A DNA stretch of 64,000 nt. Origin: Planctomycetaceae bacterium (lineage in GTDB: Bacteria > Planctomycetota > Planctomycetia > Planctomycetales > Planctomycetaceae). Below, piece after piece: positions 2,222 to 12,845 of this stretch (its first letter is position 1; every line of letters starts with the position of its first letter). The translations under genes were made by a program, and so were the position numbers. The notes below the pieces were generated by a model. It was not told the origin of the DNA, ran no database searches, and worked only from the letters and a program-made list of their open reading frames with translations. The stretch is taken from the NCBI GenBank assembly GCA_021732995.1, contig JAKFWA010000004.1:1-64000 (forward strand). The letters are read 5' to 3'.

Positions 2222-2774
2222 TAGCGGAAATCTAGTCAGGTTGTCTGCGGCAAGGAAGAATTGGCGAGCCCATCAGCCTAAAAGAGGGCAAGCTCAAATC
2301 GAAGCGCGCGAGAATCGTCCAGGTCTACGCTTTGCCTCTATATATGCGGTCGCACAAAGGAGCCGTATGTATTGACCTTTCGCGGCGGAGGCACCTGAGG
2401 TTAGGACGCCGGACGAGATAGTTTGAAGCCTCTTTTTCGACATCTGTAAGCGTGGGATGGCGAATACACATCTCAATTTGCCTGTTCGACGACCCGCCAC
2501 ATCGATTTTGGCCAACGTCGTCGAGACCAAGAGCCATGCCAACTGACCGACAGGGTAACGCCCGATGTAAGAATACATCTCTCATTTGGAGATCAGAGTG
2601 CTCGGCTCACCAGTCGTGACGGCAGCAAATACATCACTCATTTGCGCAGCGCTTGCGGTCGGATCACCTGGCTACGGCCTCCACCAAGCCGCAACTCGCA
2701 GATTTAGCCCGAGTACTTCATGGGGTAGTGCGCTCACTATGGCTCTGGCCCAACCAACGTCGAGCAGCAGGAAG
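2222..2774. other. No convincing gene
   Basis: Frames of 80-95 codons exist on both strands, overlapping each other and with unlikely compositions (Arg/Ser/Cys-rich). None has a motif I recognise. It may be decayed coding sequence between the accessory genes on the left and the restriction locus on the right. Confidence 0.4.
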
Positions 2775-3158
2775 CTATGCCTTCGGACTTTGCAGAGCAC
2801 TGATCAGATCTGTGGCCAGCTCTTCGTCCAGGCAGTTCTCAAATCGTCCCGTCGCCGCGTTGATGCCCAGGTCTGCTAAAACGTTTGGCGGAACCTCGGT
2901 CGGCTTGGGGATGGCGAGTTTCACTCGGACCTGAAACGGGAACTTGCCGCCCCACATCTTGGGGACCAAGTTCTTGCCACCGTTGCACGTGGCCAGCCAC
3001 AGCCCAAGTAGGCCCCCGATCTCGTAGTGATGCAGCAGGAGATAGTCCCCCGTCTTGATCTCCAGAGGCCAAGGTTTGTTGGAGCCGAACAAACTCTTCT
3101 CCATGCAGTCCATGTAGGTCGTGCTGCTGCACTCGAAGAAGAAGGCTCTTGCGGGCAT
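2775..3158 (-). CDS. DCD-domain-like protein (PUA-like fold), bacterial
   Basis: The first 85 of 127 residues follow the pattern of the DCD (Development and Cell Death) domain known mainly from plants: an opening AFFFECSSTTY, a Cys and an LFGSNKPWPL loop, GDYLLLHHY, a Gly-rich LLGLWLATCNGG turn, then MWGGKFPFQVRVK. DCD belongs to the PUA-like superfamily with the EVE, YTH and ASCH domains, which often read modified bases or RNA. The C-terminal 40 residues are helical and unassigned. The gene is last in the minus-strand run hsdR, metallopeptidase, DCD (79-base gap), so a role in recognising nucleic acid within the restriction locus is an inference. Family call is from pattern memory, not a search. 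Confidence 0.7.
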   Translation of the reverse strand: MPARAFFFECSSTTYMDCMEKSLFGSNKPWPLEIKTGDYLLLHHYEIGGLLGLWLATCNGGKNLVPKMWGGKFPFQVRVKLAIPKPTEVPPNVLADLGINAATGRFENCLDEELATDLISALQSPKA

Positions 3159-3237
3159 TGATGGCTCACGGTTTGTTGAGACAGGTAGTGACTACAGCCT
3201 TTGTTAGCTGAGTCTCGATGGCTTTGACGAGTCCGAG

Positions 3238-3954
3238 TCAGTCTTTCCATGCCTCTGCTGTCAGCGGCAAGTCGTTGAGTTCTGCACGGGCTTCACGCCA
3301 CGACGGGAAATATTTGTCGAGAACAGCGATGAATCGCTCGTTGTGGGTTGGTTCAAGCAGATGAGCCATCTCATGGACGATCACGTATTCGAGAAGCTCC
3401 TTGGGCTTCTTCGCAAGCTCAGTGTTGAGTCGAATGTTGCCAACCCTGTGATTGCAACTGCCCCACTTCGTTTTCATGCGTTGTACGAAGAACCGGTTCA
3501 CGGTTACTCCCATCAGCCGTTCCCACTTCGCAACTAAGGGCGGAACGGCAACTTTGACCTGCTGCCGATACCAGTCTTCCAGAACAACCCTCTTCCTTTC
3601 CTCACTTGATCCAGGGCGAACTTGCAAGACGAGCTTGCGGTGACTGAGCTCCACGTTCGGTGCGCCGTCTCTCTCGTCTAACGTCAGCAGATACCGCTTC
3701 CCCCAAACGTAATGGCTTTCTCGCTCCAGGTATTCTCGGGGAGTTTCCCGTTCCTGTGATTGCATCTTCTTTTGCTGCTGACGAATCCAGCCGATCTTGG
3801 AGATTGCGAATGCTCGGATGACGTCCAAGTTCATCCGCAATGGAGCGGAGATCCTCACCCTACCCGTTGGGGGGTTAACGCTGAGGTGGACGTTCTTGAT
3901 GTTTTTGAAAGCGACATCCAGCACCATGTCGCCCAGCGTGATCTGCGGAACCAT
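3238..3954 (-). CDS. YgjP/DUF45-type zinc metallopeptidase
   Basis: The protein (238 aa) has the DUF45 signature: MKTKWGSC at about residues 160-167, then VIVHEMAHLLEPTHNERF, where HEMAH (194-198) supplies two zinc ligands and the catalytic glutamate and the following His/Glu region the rest. Family members are small cytoplasmic metallopeptidases, fold-related to SprT/WLM, and are commonly found next to type I restriction genes. Their substrate is not established. Its ATG overlaps the hsdR stop (TAATG), so it is translated after hsdR. A regulatory cleavage of restriction subunits is conceivable but unproven. Confidence 0.88.
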   Translation of the reverse strand: MVPQITLGDMVLDVAFKNIKNVHLSVNPPTGRVRISAPLRMNLDVIRAFAISKIGWIRQQQKKMQSQERETPREYLERESHYVWGKRYLLTLDERDGAPNVELSHRKLVLQVRPGSSEERKRVVLEDWYRQQVKVAVPPLVAKWERLMGVTVNRFFVQRMKTKWGSCNHRVGNIRLNTELAKKPKELLEYVIVHEMAHLLEPTHNERFIAVLDKYFPSWREARAELNDLPLTAEAWKD

Positions 3955-6900
3955 TAGTATTCGCGATGCTTCTCGATGATAAGAAAGATTCGCTCGACTT
4001 CATCCCCGTTCTGGAGGATGTCAAAGAGCGCTCCCTTAACGACCAACTCCCTCGCTCGAACTCCGCGCCAGCCATCGGGTCGAGCTGCCTTTACGGACTC
4101 GTCAATCTGGATTGCCAGTGCTTCATTCTGCCCCAGATTGTTGTAGAGAGCACGTCTACCGGGCGTGTTGAGCAGCTCCGGCGTGCTGTCGGCCCGTCCA
4201 GATTGGACACTTTTGGCGATGAGAGCGATCCGCTTCAGGTATTGCTCGTAGTCAATCCGCTTGGCTCGTAGGTCGGCAATGATCTGATCGAGCAACAACG
4301 ACATCTTGTCGTAGAACGCTGGATCGTTGAGATGGTCCTTAATGATCTTGCTGCGGACGTTGTTCGCAATCGTCTCGGCAATCGCATCTTGATTGCCTTT
4401 GATGCCATCAGGCAGGCTGTTGATCGCATTCGCGATGCCGGTCTTGAGAATCAGCTCCAAGAGAGGGATGTCATCGAAGGGCGAGATCTTTCGTGGCTCT
4501 GCGGCATTGATGTACGTGTCGATGAGATGCCGCATGTCGGCTTCGTAAGCTTTCAGATCGATGGTCTCACCACTGGCTTTGCGAATGAGGTCGCGTAGCT
4601 TCACGTAGTGGTCGAGTTCTTTCTTGATCCGAGTAATGTCGGCAGGGGTGTAACCAGCCCCTTCCAATTCATCTGCGATGTTGGCATAGGCACGAACCAG
4701 GCTTGCAGTTGCTTTGTACAAGCCTGTTCGTTGCGGCTCACGATTCTTGAGATCTTCAGGAACTTCAGTGTTACCGCAGAAGTAATGAATGTGCTCCAAC
4801 TCACCCTTGGGTGGATTCACGGGCTCACACATCAGAGCCAAGGCTTCCAAGGCATTGTCGAGCCGTTCGCGTCCCTTCAGCAGTCGGTCTTCAAGCAAGA
4901 CATCGGGACTTACGCCGCCATCGCTGTGATCAAGCTCTGAGGTGTAGACAGCAATCGCATTCTCGACCTTCTTGAACAGGTCTTTGTAGTCAACGATGTA
5001 GCCGAACTCCTTGTCTTCGCCGTCCAGTCGATTTGTGCGGCAGATGGCTTGGAACAAGCCGTGGTCCTGCATGCTCTTGTCGATGTAGAGGCAGGTGCAA
5101 CTCGGAACGTCGAAGCCAGTCAGCAGCTTGTCCACAACGATCAGCAACTTCATGTTGGCTGGTTGTTCCTTAAACAGCTTCTTGACGTTGTCCTCGTAGG
5201 TCTCGGTTGGAGATTTGTTCGACGCAGCGGCCACGTCTTTCAACAATGCCGTGTAGGTGTTGTAAATGAATTCCTTGTCGGTTTCTGTATTTGCTCCGGT
5301 GTCTTCTTCAGTGATGTCTTTGGTCTGAGGGTTGTAAGACGTTACGACCGCACACATTCCCTTGAATGACGTCTTCTGAAACAGCTCGAAGTACTTACAG
5401 GCTTCGTAAATGCTGGAGGCGACCAAGATGGCATTGCCTCGGTCGTTGTTGAGACGTGGTCGGACACTGAAGTCGAAGACAATGTCTTGCACCACGCGCT
5501 CCATGCGGGAGCGAGAGCTGAGAACGTTCTGCATGGTGCCCCACTTCTCTCGCAGGGCTGCTTTTTGCCAATCGTTCAGAGCCTTCGTTTTGGCGTCAAA
5601 CCAGGCATCGATCTTGTCTTGAGATCCAAGCTGTTGATCGATGTCACGAGCTTCATAGATGAGGTCTAGCACCACCTCGTCTTGGACGGCCTCGCTGAAC
5701 TTGTAGGTGTGAATGTAGTTGCCGAAGACCTCGCGGCTCGTCTGATGGTCCTGCTTCAACAGCGGCGTTCCCGTAAACCCCACGAAGACTGCTGCGGGCA
5801 TCATAGCCTTCATGGTGCGGTGCAGCTTGCCGCTCTGCGTGCGGTGGCACTCATCAACAAACACGAAAAGTTCGCCGACAGATTGGCATGGTTGGGATTG
5901 GAGTTCCTTGATGAACTCTTCGAAGTTCTTCACGTCTTTCTTGCCAAACTTATGCACCAACGAGCACATCAACCTTGGCTTTGACTGGCCGAGCAATCCC
6001 ATCAAGTCGCGTCCGCTGCTGGTCCGAGTGATCGTCTCGCCTGCTTCCTTGAAGACGCCTTCGATCTGTTTGTCTAACTCGTCGCGGTCAGTGACGATTA
6101 ACACTCGGCCATTCGGCTTGTTCTCCAAGATCCACTTCGCCAGCAGCACCATGACGATGCTTTTGCCGCTGCCTTGTGTGTGCCAGATGATGCCGCCCTG
6201 GTAGGCGTTCACGTGTTCTTGAGCGGCCTTGATGCCGAAGTACTGATGCACTCGCGGCAGCTTCTTCACGCCACCATCAAACAGCACAAAGTCGTAGATC
6301 AGTTCGAGCAAGCGCTCTTTGGCGCACATCTTCAGCAAGTACTTATCGAGCTTAAACCGACTGTTATCGGACTCGTCTTCCTTCCAGGTGAGGAAGTACT
6401 TCTCGCCTGTCTTAATGGTACCGTACTTCAGACCCTCAGAATCGTTGCCTGCGAAGATGAACTGGACCGTGCTGTAGAACCACTCGTTGAACTCAGGTTG
6501 TTGATTGGAGATGCTCTGACGGATGCCGTCTCCAATGTCCCTGCGGCTGTTCTTCAGTTCGATCACACCAACCGCGATGCCATTCAGATAGAGCACCAAG
6601 TCAGGACGACGCTCGTGATTGCCCGAGAGCGTTACTTCTTCGGCAATCGCTAGCTGATTCAGCGATCTGAAGCGCCAATCCACGAGATGAACCGTCACGG
6701 TAGCCTTACCGGCTTCCTCTTTGACGGGCACGCCATAGCGGAGCAGTTCGTAAACCGCCTTGTTGTTGTCGTAAAGGCTGCGATTTGGGTTCCTCGCCTC
6801 AGTCATCAACTTATCAATCGCTCGGCTGATCACAGAGTACGTGTAGCCCATCCTGACCAGATACTCGGTCAACAGCTCGACGTCGATGTTGCTGTTGTTA

Positions 6901-7004
6901 GGTCGGTCTGACCAATCGCCGAGGTATTGATATCCGAGTTCCTTTCGAAACAGGGCAATGACTCGATCCTGAGTGGCTCGCTCTTTCTGACCCACATTGC
7001 TCAT
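3954..7004 (-). CDS. hsdR: Type I restriction enzyme, R (translocase/endonuclease) subunit
   Basis: At 1,016 aa this is a full-length HsdR. The N-terminal PD-(D/E)XK nuclease is visible as RPDLVLYLNGIAVGVIELK (D135, E149, K151). The SF2 motor follows: Walker A QGSGKS (277-282), Walker B VFVDECHR, motif III GFTGTPLL, motif V LLTGFDVPSCTCLYIDK and motif VI QAICRTNR. The C-terminal part is helical and would dock on the methylase core. The subunit translocates DNA using ATP and cuts it far from an unmodified site. It is separated from hsdM/hsdS by the toxin-antitoxin pair and a nuclease gene, and starts 232 bases from the divergent antitoxin gene. All motifs look intact. Confidence 0.96.
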   Translation of the reverse strand: MSNVGQKERATQDRVIALFRKELGYQYLGDWSDRPNNSNIDVELLTEYLVRMGYTYSVISRAIDKLMTEARNPNRSLYDNNKAVYELLRYGVPVKEEAGKATVTVHLVDWRFRSLNQLAIAEEVTLSGNHERRPDLVLYLNGIAVGVIELKNSRRDIGDGIRQSISNQQPEFNEWFYSTVQFIFAGNDSEGLKYGTIKTGEKYFLTWKEDESDNSRFKLDKYLLKMCAKERLLELIYDFVLFDGGVKKLPRVHQYFGIKAAQEHVNAYQGGIIWHTQGSGKSIVMVLLAKWILENKPNGRVLIVTDRDELDKQIEGVFKEAGETITRTSSGRDLMGLLGQSKPRLMCSLVHKFGKKDVKNFEEFIKELQSQPCQSVGELFVFVDECHRTQSGKLHRTMKAMMPAAVFVGFTGTPLLKQDHQTSREVFGNYIHTYKFSEAVQDEVVLDLIYEARDIDQQLGSQDKIDAWFDAKTKALNDWQKAALREKWGTMQNVLSSRSRMERVVQDIVFDFSVRPRLNNDRGNAILVASSIYEACKYFELFQKTSFKGMCAVVTSYNPQTKDITEEDTGANTETDKEFIYNTYTALLKDVAAASNKSPTETYEDNVKKLFKEQPANMKLLIVVDKLLTGFDVPSCTCLYIDKSMQDHGLFQAICRTNRLDGEDKEFGYIVDYKDLFKKVENAIAVYTSELDHSDGGVSPDVLLEDRLLKGRERLDNALEALALMCEPVNPPKGELEHIHYFCGNTEVPEDLKNREPQRTGLYKATASLVRAYANIADELEGAGYTPADITRIKKELDHYVKLRDLIRKASGETIDLKAYEADMRHLIDTYINAAEPRKISPFDDIPLLELILKTGIANAINSLPDGIKGNQDAIAETIANNVRSKIIKDHLNDPAFYDKMSLLLDQIIADLRAKRIDYEQYLKRIALIAKSVQSGRADSTPELLNTPGRRALYNNLGQNEALAIQIDESVKAARPDGWRGVRARELVVKGALFDILQNGDEVERIFLIIEKHREY

Positions 7005-7236
7005 GGTGGCCCGCTGAATTCGTAAACGGAGTTGAACAGCAGTCTCGGCGTCATTGTCTTTACAGATTCAGACCTCACTCGTGGGCAGGAACGTATTCGA
7101 GCTGTTCATGCTGAGCAAACGGAGAGTGATTGCCTTCATAGCAGTTCGGGCAGCACTTGGGACTTTGCAGCCACATTGCCGGTGCCCTGCTCCTTCCGTA
7201 ACATTCTTTTGGTGGTCAAATTGGCGAGGTAGTGCG

Positions 7237-7815
7237 ATGGATCAAAATGAAAAATGCGATCGGCTCATTGAGGCGGCAAGTGCCGTGTTGAATGCCGCTC
7301 CAAATCGTCGACTCAATGTGGTCGTTCTCAACAAGGCCCTCTTCTATCTGGACTTGGCCTCGCTGCGGGATCGTGCTGCGACCATCACAGGCAACACCTA
7401 CATCGCCATTCAACAAGGACCGGTGGTCGCGAGGTATCCGCAACGTCTCATCGGTCAACTTGAAGCTCGTGGGCTTGGGAAGCAGATCAGCGAATGGAAC
7501 GGTGCCAAGCCGATCTTCCTGGAAACGTACCCTGAACATTTCAAGTTTATTGATGCTGATGCCATGAGCTTGGTATCCGCCGTGACAGCCTTCTTTTCCG
7601 ATGCCACGTCACGCCAAGCCTCAGACTACTCACATGAAAATCCTGGCTGGCAGTTGGCTTGGAATGAGTACCTCAGGACCAACAAGCCATCAGCCATCAA
7701 CATGCACGTCGCGTTGCAACAGATCGTGGAAGACGATCCGTGGATGGACCTGCCGCTGATGAATGATGATGAGATCCTGGCCGCTGCGGATGCTGGAGTC
7801 GGAGTGGACTGGTAA
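7237..7815 (+). CDS. Panacea-domain (DUF4065) antitoxin
   Basis: The product (192 aa) matches the Panacea fold: LNKALFYLDLASLRD near residue 31, then ITGNTYIAIQQGPVVARYP, and the late signature YSHENPGWQLAW (131-142). Panacea domains are known as general antitoxin modules that neutralise many unrelated toxins, and are related to the SocA proteolytic adaptor. The ATG at 7237 is chosen over the frame's earlier start at 7054 because GCGAGG lies just upstream and the conserved domain begins right after it. The stop overlaps the next ATG (TAATG), coupling it to the toxin. Autoregulation is common in such pairs but no operator was identified. Confidence 0.88.
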   Translation: MDQNEKCDRLIEAASAVLNAAPNRRLNVVVLNKALFYLDLASLRDRAATITGNTYIAIQQGPVVARYPQRLIGQLEARGLGKQISEWNGAKPIFLETYPEHFKFIDADAMSLVSAVTAFFSDATSRQASDYSHENPGWQLAWNEYLRTNKPSAINMHVALQQIVEDDPWMDLPLMNDDEILAAADAGVGVDW

Positions 7816-8189
7816 TGCACTACGCGCCGGAAGACGGAAAGTGGCAGGTTGCTGAGCAGGCTGTGCTCTTGTCTGAGTTGCGAGAGCGGATGACGGCGGA
7901 AGAGTACGAGCAGAACAAGCAGGCTCTGAAGGTGTTCCTCTGCGGTTATTTTTCGACCGGCGATTGCCGTAACTCTCAGGGGAGTTCCATCTCTCCCATG
8001 AAGGCATCGCCCCAGGGTGGCAAGGTGTTGAAGGTGCGGTGGGCTTATCCGGGTTGTGGGAAGAGTGGCAGCTTGCGGCTGGTGGTTGTGGCCTACTGCG
8101 ACCAATTGAGGGTTCACATTGCTCAAGCGTTTGATCGACGTGAAGACCCCACAGATGACGATGTTCGGGATGCCGTAAACGATCTCTAA
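7815..8189 (+). CDS. RelE/HigB-like toxin paired with the Panacea antitoxin
   Basis: A 124-residue protein whose last 55 residues fit the RelE/ParE toxin core: VLKVRWAYPGCGKSGSLRLV corresponds to the strand-loop-strand K.RW..PG.GK.GG.R of HigB2-type toxins, and AQAFDRREDPTDDDV to the terminal YAKNE...LT segment. The first 50 residues (ELRERMTAEEYEQNKQ) are helical. Proteins of this fold usually cleave ribosome-bound mRNA or poison gyrase. One-base overlap with the antitoxin gene supports a toxin-antitoxin operon. The usual GGxR is here GSLR, so activity is uncertain. It sits inside the restriction locus on the opposite strand, where it could penalise loss of the locus. Confidence 0.72.
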   Translation: MHYAPEDGKWQVAEQAVLLSELRERMTAEEYEQNKQALKVFLCGYFSTGDCRNSQGSSISPMKASPQGGKVLKVRWAYPGCGKSGSLRLVVVAYCDQLRVHIAQAFDRREDPTDDDVRDAVNDL

Positions 8190-8201: not shown

Positions 8202-9128
8202 TTACCCCTTCACCAACTTAAAGCTGATCTCATAGCGATAGAACGTGATCGTCGGAGTCATCGTTAGAGCCCGCTGGATACCCTTGTCGTCTTCCAGAGC
8301 GATGATGACTCCGTGAACGGTTTGGCCAGGCTCTGCGAGTTGTTCTTGAACGTAACCCATGTAACGCAAGATCTGCCCGACGACTCGGTCGCTGGCTCGG
8401 CCTCGTTTGAGTTCCACGACCAGCAACCGCTTCTTGTCCTTGCTAATGGCCAGGATGTCTAACGGGCCGGTGTCGGTCGGGTACTGCTGACCGACTTGCT
8501 CTCCGTCTTCCGCAAAGATGTCGAATTCCTTGCCGAGTTCTGTTTGCGACCAATTCTTGACCAAGAAATCTTCGAGATGTTTTTCCATTGCGAAGCTCGC
8601 GGAGCTTTCTACGAGCTGTTCTTCCGCTGCGGCTTGAGAAACGGAAACGCCAGCAATGAGGTGGTCGATCTCTTCGTGGTAGCTGCTGATGTCGCTGACG
8701 GTGCCAGGACCACCTGACGAATTCTTGAGTGCCTGACTCATGTCATCGCGATCGAAGCTGGCTTCCAACCACTTGACCTGACGACGATGTGGCAGAATCT
8801 GGCCGGGGGCGTAGTAGTAATCGCCACAGACTTCTCCGACGCGATATCTGCGATTGCCATCGGGACACAGCACGATGTCGCCCTGCTGAATGCCTTTGGA
8901 GATGGTCCAGATCGCACCGCAGGCAAGGCCCGCTCCGATCTTGGTCTTATCCGGATGCGTGGCTAGGAAGATCGGAATCAACGCAGCGTTGAACTCTTTC
9001 CATCCATCCTTGAGTTTGTCGGTCAGGTCTTCGTTGACGTCGTAATGGGCTCCAATGAAGTTCCCAGCTAAGCACTCCGCAGAATGGATACTTTTCTGCC
9101 CCAACATGACTCGGTAGTAGCTTTTCAT
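8202..9128 (-). CDS. NucS-like PD-(D/E)XK nuclease with N-terminal PUA/EVE-like domain
   Basis: The C-terminal half of 308 aa is a NucS/EndoMS-type nuclease: GPLDILAISKDKKRLLVVEL then KRGRASDRVVGQILRYMGYV, with D224, E239 and K241 as the catalytic set and the conserved GQ.LRYMG helix. The N-terminal 125 residues have HPDKTKIGAGLACGAIW, GDIVLCPDG, GEVCGDYYYAP and PHRRQVKWL. The last pattern recurs in base-reading PUA/EVE-like domains of modification-dependent restriction proteins (recalled, not searched). It lies seven bases after hsdS, in the same operon. It may be a separate nuclease that cuts modified or mismatched DNA, alongside the type I enzyme. Confidence 0.8.
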   Translation of the reverse strand: MKSYYRVMLGQKSIHSAECLAGNFIGAHYDVNEDLTDKLKDGWKEFNAALIPIFLATHPDKTKIGAGLACGAIWTISKGIQQGDIVLCPDGNRRYRVGEVCGDYYYAPGQILPHRRQVKWLEASFDRDDMSQALKNSSGGPGTVSDISSYHEEIDHLIAGVSVSQAAAEEQLVESSASFAMEKHLEDFLVKNWSQTELGKEFDIFAEDGEQVGQQYPTDTGPLDILAISKDKKRLLVVELKRGRASDRVVGQILRYMGYVQEQLAEPGQTVHGVIIALEDDKGIQRALTMTPTITFYRYEISFKLVKG

Positions 9129-9135
9129 ACGGACC

Positions 9136-10404
9136 TTAGATCAAACGAGTACGACCGGCTAACAGTTCCTGCATCATCCCCTGCTTGAGCAGGCGGGTCT
9201 TGTCCCGTTTCTGTTCCAGCGCGGCCAGCTCCGCGTCCATGTCCGAGAGCACCTCGGCGATCGCTGTTTGCTCGGCTGGTGATGGCAACGGGATGACCAT
9301 GCCCGCAATCATTTCCATGCGTACCGAATCAACTGACGACTTCGCAGTCATCGACATGATGCGGTCATAGAACCGCGTGCTGAAGACGAGGAAGAAGAAT
9401 CTCCCAACGAGACGCGGCGAGAAGTCGCTGATCTTGTAGACGCGCTGGTGGATGTCGAACTTGCCGTTGATGTAGTGAAACACTTTGCCTGTCCCGACAC
9501 CGTCGCCAGCAGTGAGTACGGCCTCGCCGTCGAAGGAATAGCTGTTGATTCTCTCGACCGTCGATGACCTCACAAAGAATGGGTAAGCGCCGTCTTCGAT
9601 TCGGTCTTGAGTATTTCGCGAACCGGTTGTGATCGCAGCCAGTGGCCGTATTCGTTCGACTTCCCAATCCTCCGGGATCTCGCCGATGTCAGTCTGCTGG
9701 AATCGCGGGTTGGCGGGGGCGAAGCCCGGCAGGCGTTGGCGGCCGGTGAGGAGTTGCTGCATGGCGGCCTGTTTGAGGTCGCGCTTCTTGACGATGAGCT
9801 GGTCCAACGCGCCGATCAGGGCATCCACATCGCTCAACGCCCCCGCAATCGCCCGCTGCTCGGCTTCAGTTGGTGGAAGAACAACCGGAAGCTGATGTTG
9901 GGCCTTGATTCCGATATAGGCGCGGGTGCCTCCACCAGCCAGTGCCTTCAGAACCGACTGAAAGCCAGTGCTATCGAAAAAGTGACGAAGGTAGAGATTG
10001 CTGAGTCGATTCTTATCGGCCACTCGATAGTACGTGACCTGCGGCGTCAGCATGACGTAAGGGAATGGTATCTGGCCGACGATTGCAGTGTTGCCGATGG
10101 TCGCCTTGTGCGTGAGCAAAACGTCGCCCGATCGCGAGAAGCCTTTCCTAAGGGAATCCGCCTGTTTCTTTCGGATGAAGGAGCAGTTCACGAGATCTAC
10201 CTGGCCTCCTTGAACATTGTTCGCCATTACGAAAGGAATGCCGTAATCGACGAAGTCACCGCTCTTGGGATGAATGTTGCCGTGATTCCCGTCAAGCGGC
10301 TTTTCGATGATCCCATCTTCGATCAATTGGCCGACCGTTCCGTCACGCCAATCCTCCGGGATGACACCCACTGCGGTCAGCTTGTATCCCGGTTTCAGTT
10401 CCAT
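9136..10404 (-). CDS. hsdS: Type I restriction enzyme, S (specificity) subunit
   Basis: HsdS of 422 aa with the usual two-fold layout: target-recognition domain 1, a central conserved helix (PPTEAEQRAIAGALSDVDAL up to KRDLKQAAMQQLLTGRQRLPGF), target-recognition domain 2, and a second helix (SPAEQTAIAEVLSDMDAELA, ending KQGMMQELLAGRTRL). It holds two HsdM subunits and reads a bipartite site; the site cannot be predicted from sequence by eye. The start overlaps the hsdM end by 10 bases (the ATG lies within GTATGGAACTGA), so the two are translationally coupled. Confidence 0.96.
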   Translation of the reverse strand: MELKPGYKLTAVGVIPEDWRDGTVGQLIEDGIIEKPLDGNHGNIHPKSGDFVDYGIPFVMANNVQGGQVDLVNCSFIRKKQADSLRKGFSRSGDVLLTHKATIGNTAIVGQIPFPYVMLTPQVTYYRVADKNRLSNLYLRHFFDSTGFQSVLKALAGGGTRAYIGIKAQHQLPVVLPPTEAEQRAIAGALSDVDALIGALDQLIVKKRDLKQAAMQQLLTGRQRLPGFAPANPRFQQTDIGEIPEDWEVERIRPLAAITTGSRNTQDRIEDGAYPFFVRSSTVERINSYSFDGEAVLTAGDGVGTGKVFHYINGKFDIHQRVYKISDFSPRLVGRFFFLVFSTRFYDRIMSMTAKSSVDSVRMEMIAGMVIPLPSPAEQTAIAEVLSDMDAELAALEQKRDKTRLLKQGMMQELLAGRTRLI

Positions 10405-12845
10405 ACCGCCCCCATCTTCTGGAGGTGCTCGGCGACGCGGGCGGACAGGGACTCGACCTGCTCGGTCAGGTTCGGCAGCGGGGACGCATAACGCTCGGCA
10501 AGTTGACGGACGCGACCGGTCAACGACTGCGAGACGCGATCGAGTTCACTCTGCACATCAGCAGCCAGTCGTGCCAACCACTTGTCGTCCACGACCAACG
10601 TCTTGATCTCGACTTCCGTCAGCTTGCCGTACTTCTCGACGACTTTCGCATCCAGCTCTTTCTGCACCTCTTTGACTTGCCTGTTCGTCTCCGACTCTTG
10701 CTCGGTCAGCTCCAGATATTCCGTCAGCAGTTTCCGCTCGTCTGCTGCTTCAGTATCCGACTTGATGACCTTTAATCGAGCCGTCACGGCTGCCTTGGCG
10801 ATGCCGCCTTTGTCATCCAAGACATCCGCCAACAAGCCTTCTTCACCGCTGTGTTCTTCCTTCAGTTCTTCCAGTTTTTGCGAGAGCACCGCAGCCTCTG
10901 CTTCCAACGACTCCAACCATGCCTGCTCTTCCTGAAAGTAACGAGCAATCACAAGCGAGGGCGGAATGAGTTCAGCCTTGTACTTCAACTTGCCGACCGC
11001 GATGTCAGCCTTCTCTTTGGACTTGGCATCTTTCTCCACCACCAGCAGCTTCAACTTCGCAGCCTCTAACCAGCCATCGCCGACGATCATGTAGATGTCG
11101 TCCTGCATGGTCTCAGACCAGTAACTCATCAGGTGCTGATAGACGTCGTAGGGATCAACCAGTCGAGCACGTTGAAAGTCCTCTAACAGACTTTCTGAGA
11201 GTGTTTGAATCAATGCCTTAGGCTTGCCGCCGACGGCAATCCCTTGCAGCAGTGGTGTCCTAGTCTTCTTCCAGCCGTCGAAGAGGGCCGTCACAGATGC
11301 ATTGAACGACATGAACTCAGGATGGCCAAAGATCGTGGCTTTGATGTCAGCAGCGGGAACTCGGAGTTGGCTATACCCCTCACGTGCGGCTGGCTCGAAC
11401 AATGCCTTGCGGACGTTCGGAAAGACTTCCCAATACTTGGCCAAGTCGTCGATGTCCCGATTGGGAATTCCACCTCGCAAATGCCCGTCAATATCTTGCA
11501 GGTCTTCCGCGTCCGTACTGTCGATGTAACGCGGCAGATTCAGATTGAAGTCGTTCTTCGGATCGCTGATCTCTGAGACCGGCACCATCCGCGAGTACTT
11601 GGGAGTCTCAAGCTGACGGCTGAAGGTATCCACGATCTTGTGGATGTCCTGATCACGCAGCCGGTTCTTGTTGCCGTCCTTCACGAAGCCCTTACTGGCA
11701 TCAATCATGAAGATGCCCTTGCGAGCCTGAGCGTCGGCCTTATCCAGCACGATGATGCAGGCTGGGATTCCCGTTCCATAAAACAAGTTGGCGGGTAACC
11801 CGATGATCGTCTTGATGTAGCCACGCTGAATCAGCTTGCGCCGGATCTCTGCCTCGGCATTACCCCGGAACAGCACACCATGCGGCAGAATGCAGGCCCC
11901 TTGGCCACCACTCTTCAAGGACCGGACAATGTGCAGCAAGTAGGCGTAGTCGCCTTGCTTGGCTGGTGGGGCTCCAAAGGTTGAGAACCGTTCGTGCGGA
12001 TCGTTTTCCAGATTGATGCCATTGCTCCACCGCTTGTCGCTAAACGGAGGATTGGCAACCACGAAGTCAAAGGTCTTGAGCTGACCGTCATCCGTCGTGA
12101 AGAGCGGATTCGCCAACGTGTTCCCCTGCTTAATCAACGCTTCCGGGTTGTTGTGCAGAATCATGTTCATGCGGGCGAGACCCGCCGTGGCAGCATCCTT
12201 CTCCTGCCCGTAGATCGTGACCTTCGTGCTGGCATCATCAGCCACCTTCAACAGCAGCGAGCCAGAGCCACACGTTGGATCGTAAACCGTCGTCGCACTG
12301 CTGGTGTTTGCCTTCCCGATCCCAATGATCTGAGCCATCACTCGGCTGACTTCCGCAGGCGTGTAGAACTGCCCCTTGCTCTTGCCACTTTCGGTGGCGA
12401 AGTGACGCATCAGATATTCGTAGGCATCGCCCAGAATGTCGTCGCCATCAGCTCGGTTCTTGCTGAAGTCCAGTGCCTTGTTCTCAAAGATCGACACCAG
12501 ATTGGTCAGCCGATCCACCATGTCCTTGCCGGTGCCCAGCTTGGTGGCGTCGTTGAAGTCCGGCATGTCCGACAGTTTGTTGGCCAGAGCCAACGGAGCG
12601 ATGATCTTCTTGTTGATCTGATCGCCAATGTCGGTCTTGCCCTTCAGAGCGACCATGTCCTTGAAGCTAGACCCTGCCGGGATCGTGATGGGCGCATAAG
12701 GAACACCGGCGTACTTGTCGCTGACGTATTTCACGAACAGCAGCACCAGCACGTAGTCCTTGTACTGGCTAGCATCCATGCCGCCACGCAGCTCGTCGCA
12801 ACTCGACCAAAGCGAGCTGTAAAGTTCTGATTTCTTAAGTGCCAT
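10395..12845 (-). CDS. hsdM: Type I restriction enzyme, M (adenine methyltransferase) subunit, long form
   Basis: The N6-adenine methylase core is clear: helical N-terminus (KKSELYSSLWSSCDELRGGM), SAM-binding DPTCGSGSLLLK (189-200) and catalytic NPPF (265-268). The first ~500 residues cover a normal HsdM. The protein is 816 aa, longer than typical members, because of a C-terminal extension with a predicted coiled coil (roughly residues 630-740, EEQAWLESLEAEAAVLSQKL onward). It methylates the recognition site to protect host DNA. It is first in the operon hsdM-hsdS-nuclease. The extension belongs to a known long subfamily as far as I recall; its role is unclear. Confidence 0.95.
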   Translation of the reverse strand: MALKKSELYSSLWSSCDELRGGMDASQYKDYVLVLLFVKYVSDKYAGVPYAPITIPAGSSFKDMVALKGKTDIGDQINKKIIAPLALANKLSDMPDFNDATKLGTGKDMVDRLTNLVSIFENKALDFSKNRADGDDILGDAYEYLMRHFATESGKSKGQFYTPAEVSRVMAQIIGIGKANTSSATTVYDPTCGSGSLLLKVADDASTKVTIYGQEKDAATAGLARMNMILHNNPEALIKQGNTLANPLFTTDDGQLKTFDFVVANPPFSDKRWSNGINLENDPHERFSTFGAPPAKQGDYAYLLHIVRSLKSGGQGACILPHGVLFRGNAEAEIRRKLIQRGYIKTIIGLPANLFYGTGIPACIIVLDKADAQARKGIFMIDASKGFVKDGNKNRLRDQDIHKIVDTFSRQLETPKYSRMVPVSEISDPKNDFNLNLPRYIDSTDAEDLQDIDGHLRGGIPNRDIDDLAKYWEVFPNVRKALFEPAAREGYSQLRVPAADIKATIFGHPEFMSFNASVTALFDGWKKTRTPLLQGIAVGGKPKALIQTLSESLLEDFQRARLVDPYDVYQHLMSYWSETMQDDIYMIVGDGWLEAAKLKLLVVEKDAKSKEKADIAVGKLKYKAELIPPSLVIARYFQEEQAWLESLEAEAAVLSQKLEELKEEHSGEEGLLADVLDDKGGIAKAAVTARLKVIKSDTEAADERKLLTEYLELTEQESETNRQVKEVQKELDAKVVEKYGKLTEVEIKTLVVDDKWLARLAADVQSELDRVSQSLTGRVRQLAERYASPLPNLTEQVESLSARVAEHLQKMGAVWN

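Follow-up and report, generated by a model that had tools for sequence, protein, structure and literature searches.

In plants, DCD-domain proteins are important in stress and cell death, and we found no ligand for the domain in the literature searched. What does such a protein do as the last gene of a bacterial type I restriction operon? The question is raised by a 64,000-nucleotide stretch at the start of a contig from a Planctomycetaceae bacterium, referred to here as the window. On its minus strand, an operon runs HsdM, HsdS, NucS-like gene, HsdR and YgjP-like metallopeptidase, and ends, after a gap of 79 bases, with an ORF that starts with ATG and encodes a DCD protein (Table 1). All three of hsdM, hsdS and hsdR are present, as in a type I system. 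Two genes on the opposite strand (about 7183-8189, plus strand), one for a Panacea/SocA-like antitoxin and one weakly RelE-like, interrupt the series between HsdR and the NucS-like gene. The N-terminal half of the NucS-like protein has no Pfam match. Promoter and terminator scans of positions 2300-4300 found nothing.

Table 1. The DCD gene and the type I restriction operon in the window
Feature	Position	Strand	Evidence
Stand-alone DCD-domain protein, 127 aa	2775..3158	-	PF10539, fold model, dN/dS
YgjP/SprT-like zinc metallopeptidase	3238..3954	-	PF01863, E 1.7e-62; belongs to this type I operon type
HsdR, type I restriction subunit	3954..7004	-	HSDR_N, SWI2_SNF2, T1R_D3; TIGR00348, 513 bits; PADLOC REase_I, 1418 bits
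Accessory nuclease-like gene, NucS_C/PD-(D/E)XK C-terminus	8202..9128	-	PF01939, E 1.3e-7; PADLOC candidate PDC-S02 (PDLC04824), 511 bits
HsdS, type I specificity subunit	9136..10404	-	PF01420, two stretches, E 3.2e-22
HsdM, type I N6-adenine methyltransferase	10395..12845	-	PF02384, E 3.9e-101; PF12161 HsdM_N; TIGR00497 above cut-off

To identify the domain, we performed hmmscan against all of Pfam, which returned a single family, Dev_Cell_Death (PF10539, E = 1.9e-10; score 41 bits, curated cut-off 27.8 bits). Residues 6-82 of the protein align to profile positions 3-85 of 126, and the C-terminal part is variable across the bacterial set. The same family was matched by 22 of 22 aligned relatives. 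The first-pass annotation had recognized a DCD protein from its motifs (FFFECSSTTYMDCMEKSLFGSNKPWPL, GDYLLLHHY, ATCNGG and MWGGKFPFQVR); all of these are present in the ORF, and the profile matches bear the identification out, making the protein a conserved bacterial counterpart of the plant DCD domain. No PADLOC or NCBIfam model matched the window DCD, and no PDB chain matched the family by sequence; SH3-like PDB matches (E 0.4-0.8) were discounted as chance. The columns that stay invariant over relatives of 33-85% identity are C10, C18, F24, L42, G52, W69, F73, P74 and Q76, with F24 and W69 being candidate residues for a putative binding pocket. Codon comparison between the two DCD copies of this genome gave a dN/dS of 0.06, and the gene is therefore a maintained one; other diverged pairs gave 0.07-0.08, and over all pairs with dS > 0.6 the range was 0.06-0.08. 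The DCD is thus under strong purifying selection.

We then modeled the fold with AlphaFold2. A first model (pLDDT 72.5) was superseded by one built from a deeper alignment of 22 sequences, with a pLDDT of 89.4 and a pTM of 0.82 for the 127 residues. Aligned with VIA-align, this model matched the EVE protein PH1033 (Z 12.4, 2.8 A, 117 of 127 residues) and the YTH domain of YTHDC2 in complex with m6A DNA (Z 12.4, 2.8 A, 120 of 127 residues), followed by YTHDF2 (Z 12.3) and the EVE protein MJECL36 (Z 11.5). Taken over YTHDF2, YTHDC2 and the YTH-McrB protein of Thermococcus gammatolerans, the YTH matches span Z 10.4-12.4, 2.6-3.5 A and about 112-125 residues. In a Foldseek search of the PDB, YTH domains came out on top (E 1.9e-5, probability 1.00, TM 0.72), and the first 50 matches also include PH1033, MJECL36 and the EVE-HNH restriction enzyme VcaM4I. 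Since the model is closest to EVE and YTH readers, the placement in the PUA-like superfamily that had been proposed from sequence is supported at the level of the predicted fold.

Likeness in sequence is far lower, with 10-16% identity to EVE proteins and 11-20% to YTH domains, and the DCD has neither an EVE nor a YTH Pfam match. Profile comparison by hhalign against MJECL36 and planctomycete EVE proteins was weak (P 0.003-0.009), the alignments to the planctomycete EVEs covering 62-65 columns at P 0.004-0.008, too little to build on. A search for the YTH family in 199 planctomycete genomes gave one sub-threshold match only, so that no close YTH source was seen in the phylum. With the EVE and YTH scores tied, the fold does not choose between a modified cytosine and a modified adenine. 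PUA-like folds bind unmodified RNA and DNA too, and the fold alone therefore does not show modified-base reading.

To determine how closely DCD genes are tied to restriction genes, we began with the genome of the window (9.39 Mb in 135 contigs), which has exactly two HSDR_N matches and exactly two DCD genes. One DCD lies within about 1.3 kb of each HsdR; the chance of a random placement less than 1.5 kb from either HsdR is about 0.0013, and for both DCDs it is about 1.7e-6. The second DCD, on contig C40, is 85-86% identical to that of the window and stands in the gene order HsdS, unknown gene, DCD, DUF4268-like gene, HsdR. Scanning genome contigs for relatives identified 11 loci, all in Planctomycetota. 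A profile search found the DCD in 15 of 398 genomes of the same class, and PF10539 was found in 3 of 392 genomes of the phylum. These relatives are from Planctomycetota only, and many come from metagenome-assembled contigs that are short and possibly misbinned.

Among 24 distinct stand-alone planctomycete loci, hsd genes were found alongside the DCD in 21 in the stretches examined, counting an HsdR (L020) and an HsdM (L049) recognized via Pfam and an HsdR start read from the sequence at the end of L014. The loci that have no hsd gene are a DCD on a 7.8 kb contig that ends about 0.6 kb away (L052), a truncated DCD at a contig end (L054) and a truncated DCD with an internal stop (L055). The attachment to a restriction locus noted at first sight thus recurs across planctomycete DCD genes. 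Neither outcome that the first-pass annotation had named as refuting, a missing DCD match or bacterial matches unlinked to defence genes, was seen. Typically the gene lies between HsdS and HsdR; in one locus the hsdS stop overlaps the DCD start (ATGA, L015), and in another the DCD stop overlaps the hsdR start (ATGA, L051). In the class sample, 11 of the 15 DCD genomes have the second HsdR family (HsdR2), compared with 85 of all 398 genomes (Fisher p = 1.6e-5); of these 85, 74 lack a DCD.

The operon type of the window is also known without the gene. The HsdMSR-YgjP module of Sinorhizobium meliloti pSymB has the same gene order, including the YgjP-like gene after hsdR, which recurs in a planctomycete locus of genome G611 (L047), and its HsdR is 72.7% identical to the window HsdR over its full length. 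However, pSymB has no DCD after YgjP, making the DCD an addition seen in planctomycetes. Missing from this relative and from the 74 HsdR2 genomes, the DCD is not a required type I subunit; the enzymes do not need it, and it is linked to type I systems but optional.

Next, we compared the history of the DCDs with that of their restriction enzymes. While the DCDs of the window and C40 are 85% identical, their HsdRs share only 24-27%. The window HsdR is instead closest to that of L047 (52% identical, with 28% or less to other loci), yet the DCD at L047 is 73% identical to the window copy, compared with 85% for the C40 copy. Over 14 loci, DCD identity and HsdR identity do not correlate (Spearman -0.04), and the HsdS proteins of DCD loci mostly share about 20-40%. 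The DCD tree has few strongly supported branches; it joins the window and C40 copies with a support of 78/98. A tree with the window and L047 DCDs as sisters was rejected by the AU test (p-AU 0.002) despite their related HsdRs, and so each of these HsdMSR-YgjP systems seems to have acquired its DCD independently. Sisterhood of the two DCDs of genome G611, which are 92% identical, was neither supported nor rejected (p-AU 0.33).

The L047 locus displays what looks like one such event. A complete HsdM-HsdS-HsdR-YgjP cassette is flanked by fragments of a second type I system, namely an N-terminal HsdM piece (10573-11070) and a C-terminal HsdR piece (2428-2784), the latter lying past a DCD that sits at the junction. 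This looks like the insertion of a cassette into an older type I locus whose resident DCD was kept, and the arrangement is a possible route for DCD exchange. Around the window DCD, we found no HsdR2 or HsdM2 remnants of the L047 kind. Shared by unrelated HsdRs, distributed over separate lineages and apparently retained through a replacement at L047, the DCD is an interchangeable accessory and not an enzyme-specific subunit. Its exchange between lineages suggests that it acts independently of any lineage-specific contact with HsdR. Among possible vehicles, neither the plasmids nor the phages in the collections searched matched the window DCD, the plasmid collection also lacked a match to the divergent L005 DCD, and viral contigs yielded no relative. 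There is thus no evidence for phage or plasmid carriage of this subfamily.

What could an optional, exchangeable protein of one predicted PUA-like domain do for these enzymes? From the fold and the genomic context, we infer that it is probably a nucleic-acid reader. We give a probability of roughly 0.5 to the specific reading that it is a freestanding reader of modified bases, most likely in DNA, working beside type I enzymes. The normal type I rule is to cut DNA that HsdM has not methylated. Going beyond fold, selection and linkage, we infer a mechanism in which the DCD pocket would accommodate a modified base that has been flipped out, as happens in EVE and YTH domains, and its binding would flag modified DNA that is mishandled under that rule. 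DNA with a foreign modification might then be restricted, or held for the resident enzyme. The DCD would then serve a type I enzyme in trans, where EVE and YTH domains serve enzymes to which they are fused. That the ligand would be a modified base in DNA, which base this may be and how binding would affect restriction are all part of this proposal. Precedents are known experimentally from restriction enzymes (PMC7897488): the EVE domain of VcaM4I has a hydrophobic pocket into which it flips 5mC or 5hmC, and a YTH-McrB fusion recognizes 6mA in DNA through its YTH part. In VcaM4I the EVE domain is fused to the nuclease, whereas the planctomycete DCD is a separate protein.

That the DCD is conserved although its HsdS and HsdR partners differ suggests that the ligand is always the same and that HsdR is not contacted in any specialized way. 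A more tentative extension, to which we attach distinctly lower odds, is that the DCD is a portable reader traded among type I lineages, in part through exchange of the whole enzyme next to a DCD that stays in place. With it, any of these lineages could act on, or tolerate, a single shared modification, possibly m6A. The exchange between HsdR lineages suggests that trans-acting readers can supplement type I enzymes, which would widen type I defence beyond the usual trio of HsdR, HsdM and HsdS. As a strongly selected stand-alone protein of 127 residues, tied to a restriction enzyme that can be assayed with phage, the bacterial DCD is also a practical system in which to find the ligand of the domain.

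The strongest competitor to the modified-base reader, with perhaps half its weight, is a DCD that works without the Hsd proteins, sensing modified phage nucleic acid or damaged host RNA as independent defence cargo housed in a variable slot of type I loci. The slot, usually the one between HsdS and HsdR, does vary, hosting HipA-like, HIRAN, DUF4268, DUF3800, AlbA_2 (Schlafen), GmrSD or TIR genes in addition to the DCD, and most of these neighbors are themselves defence-like; such genes fit independent cargo equally well. Movement between unrelated HsdR lineages would also be expected of cargo, as would a DCD-AAA+ ATPase fusion such as that of a more remote planctomycete (G219; L003, 430-1794, minus strand), which has no hsd neighbor in its 7.4 kb contig. 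However, nearly all intact stand-alone DCDs adjoin hsd genes, the start and stop overlaps with hsdS and hsdR point to co-expression, and a lone domain of this size has no obvious effector.

Less probable again is a sensor of the host's own mark, in which the DCD would bind the N6-methyladenine deposited by HsdM and restrain HsdR or aid maintenance methylation. Such type I enzymes include an N6-adenine methyltransferase, the model fits YTH domains, including the m6A-DNA complex, as well as it fits EVE proteins, and the YTH-McrB fusion offers an example of binding to 6mA DNA (PMC7897488). Yet the YTH and EVE scores lie within 1 Z unit of each other, a tie that leaves the class of ligand to evidence other than the fold. 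A reader of a site-specific mark might moreover be expected to vary with HsdS, whereas the DCD is conserved across the divergent HsdS proteins described above, and most HsdR2 genomes do without it.

Some DCD loci carry genes associated with mobility: an AlpA-like HTH gene lies in the window near the contig start (61-375, minus strand), genes for a tyrosine integrase and a primase zinc-ribbon protein occur at C40, and a further locus (L057) has an integrase and a resolvase. On the basis of the AlpA-like, integrase and resolvase genes, DCD loci may sit on mobile islands. The truncated DCDs in G560, G712, L007 and L008 and the mobility genes near several loci would fit a DCD that is a mere passenger of such islands with no role in restriction. 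That reading is improbable, since the strong selection and a position inside the hsd operon, not just within an island, that recurs across families speak against it. The truncated copies of L008 (1434-1583) and L007 (2686-2796) are second copies lying about 1.4-1.6 kb upstream of a full one, which suggests repeated gain and loss of the DCD.

These results extend an idea that is already known. Bell, Wolf and Koonin (2020, PMC7641849) described DCDs from prokaryotes and assigned them, like EVE, to the PUA-like superfamily. They also reported the link to type I restriction and proposed that these domains read modified bases and that eukaryotes inherited DCD function from prokaryotes; a bacterial source for the plant domain had been suggested in the first-pass annotation too. 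The planctomycete proteins share with those DCDs the Pfam domain, the kinship to PUA and EVE, the type of neighborhood and the proposed reader role, and the overall conclusion, an extension of the known DCD-restriction idea, is well supported. That study, from which we take the distribution outside Planctomycetota, found the domain in few prokaryotes, most of them archaea or hyperthermophiles, and stressed fusions to methyltransferase, PD-(D/E)XK and McrB domains; the planctomycete DCD is, in contrast, a stand-alone protein common to several HsdR lineages. Planctomycetota are not mentioned in its text, and a literature search for the DCD domain together with planctomycetes found no paper. The present work adds a subfamily of stand-alone planctomycete DCDs that several HsdR lineages share, the apparent replacement at L047 and a predicted DCD model compared with structures that have been solved.

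Several neighborhoods had further features. A protein family of about 382 aa adjoins the DCD in three loci (L012, 3017-4165; L017, 10483-11631; L055, 8607-9758), and the two members that we scanned (L012 and L017) have no Pfam match. On a plasmid of M. jannaschii (L062), an EVE gene at 5392-5826 is taken as that of MJECL36, a protein of solved structure; a PIN-domain gene separates it from a type I hsdR about 3.6 kb away. Finally, in L048 (4722-9881) a TIR/SEFIR gene stands between HsdS and an HsdR of a third lineage, which is followed by the DCD.
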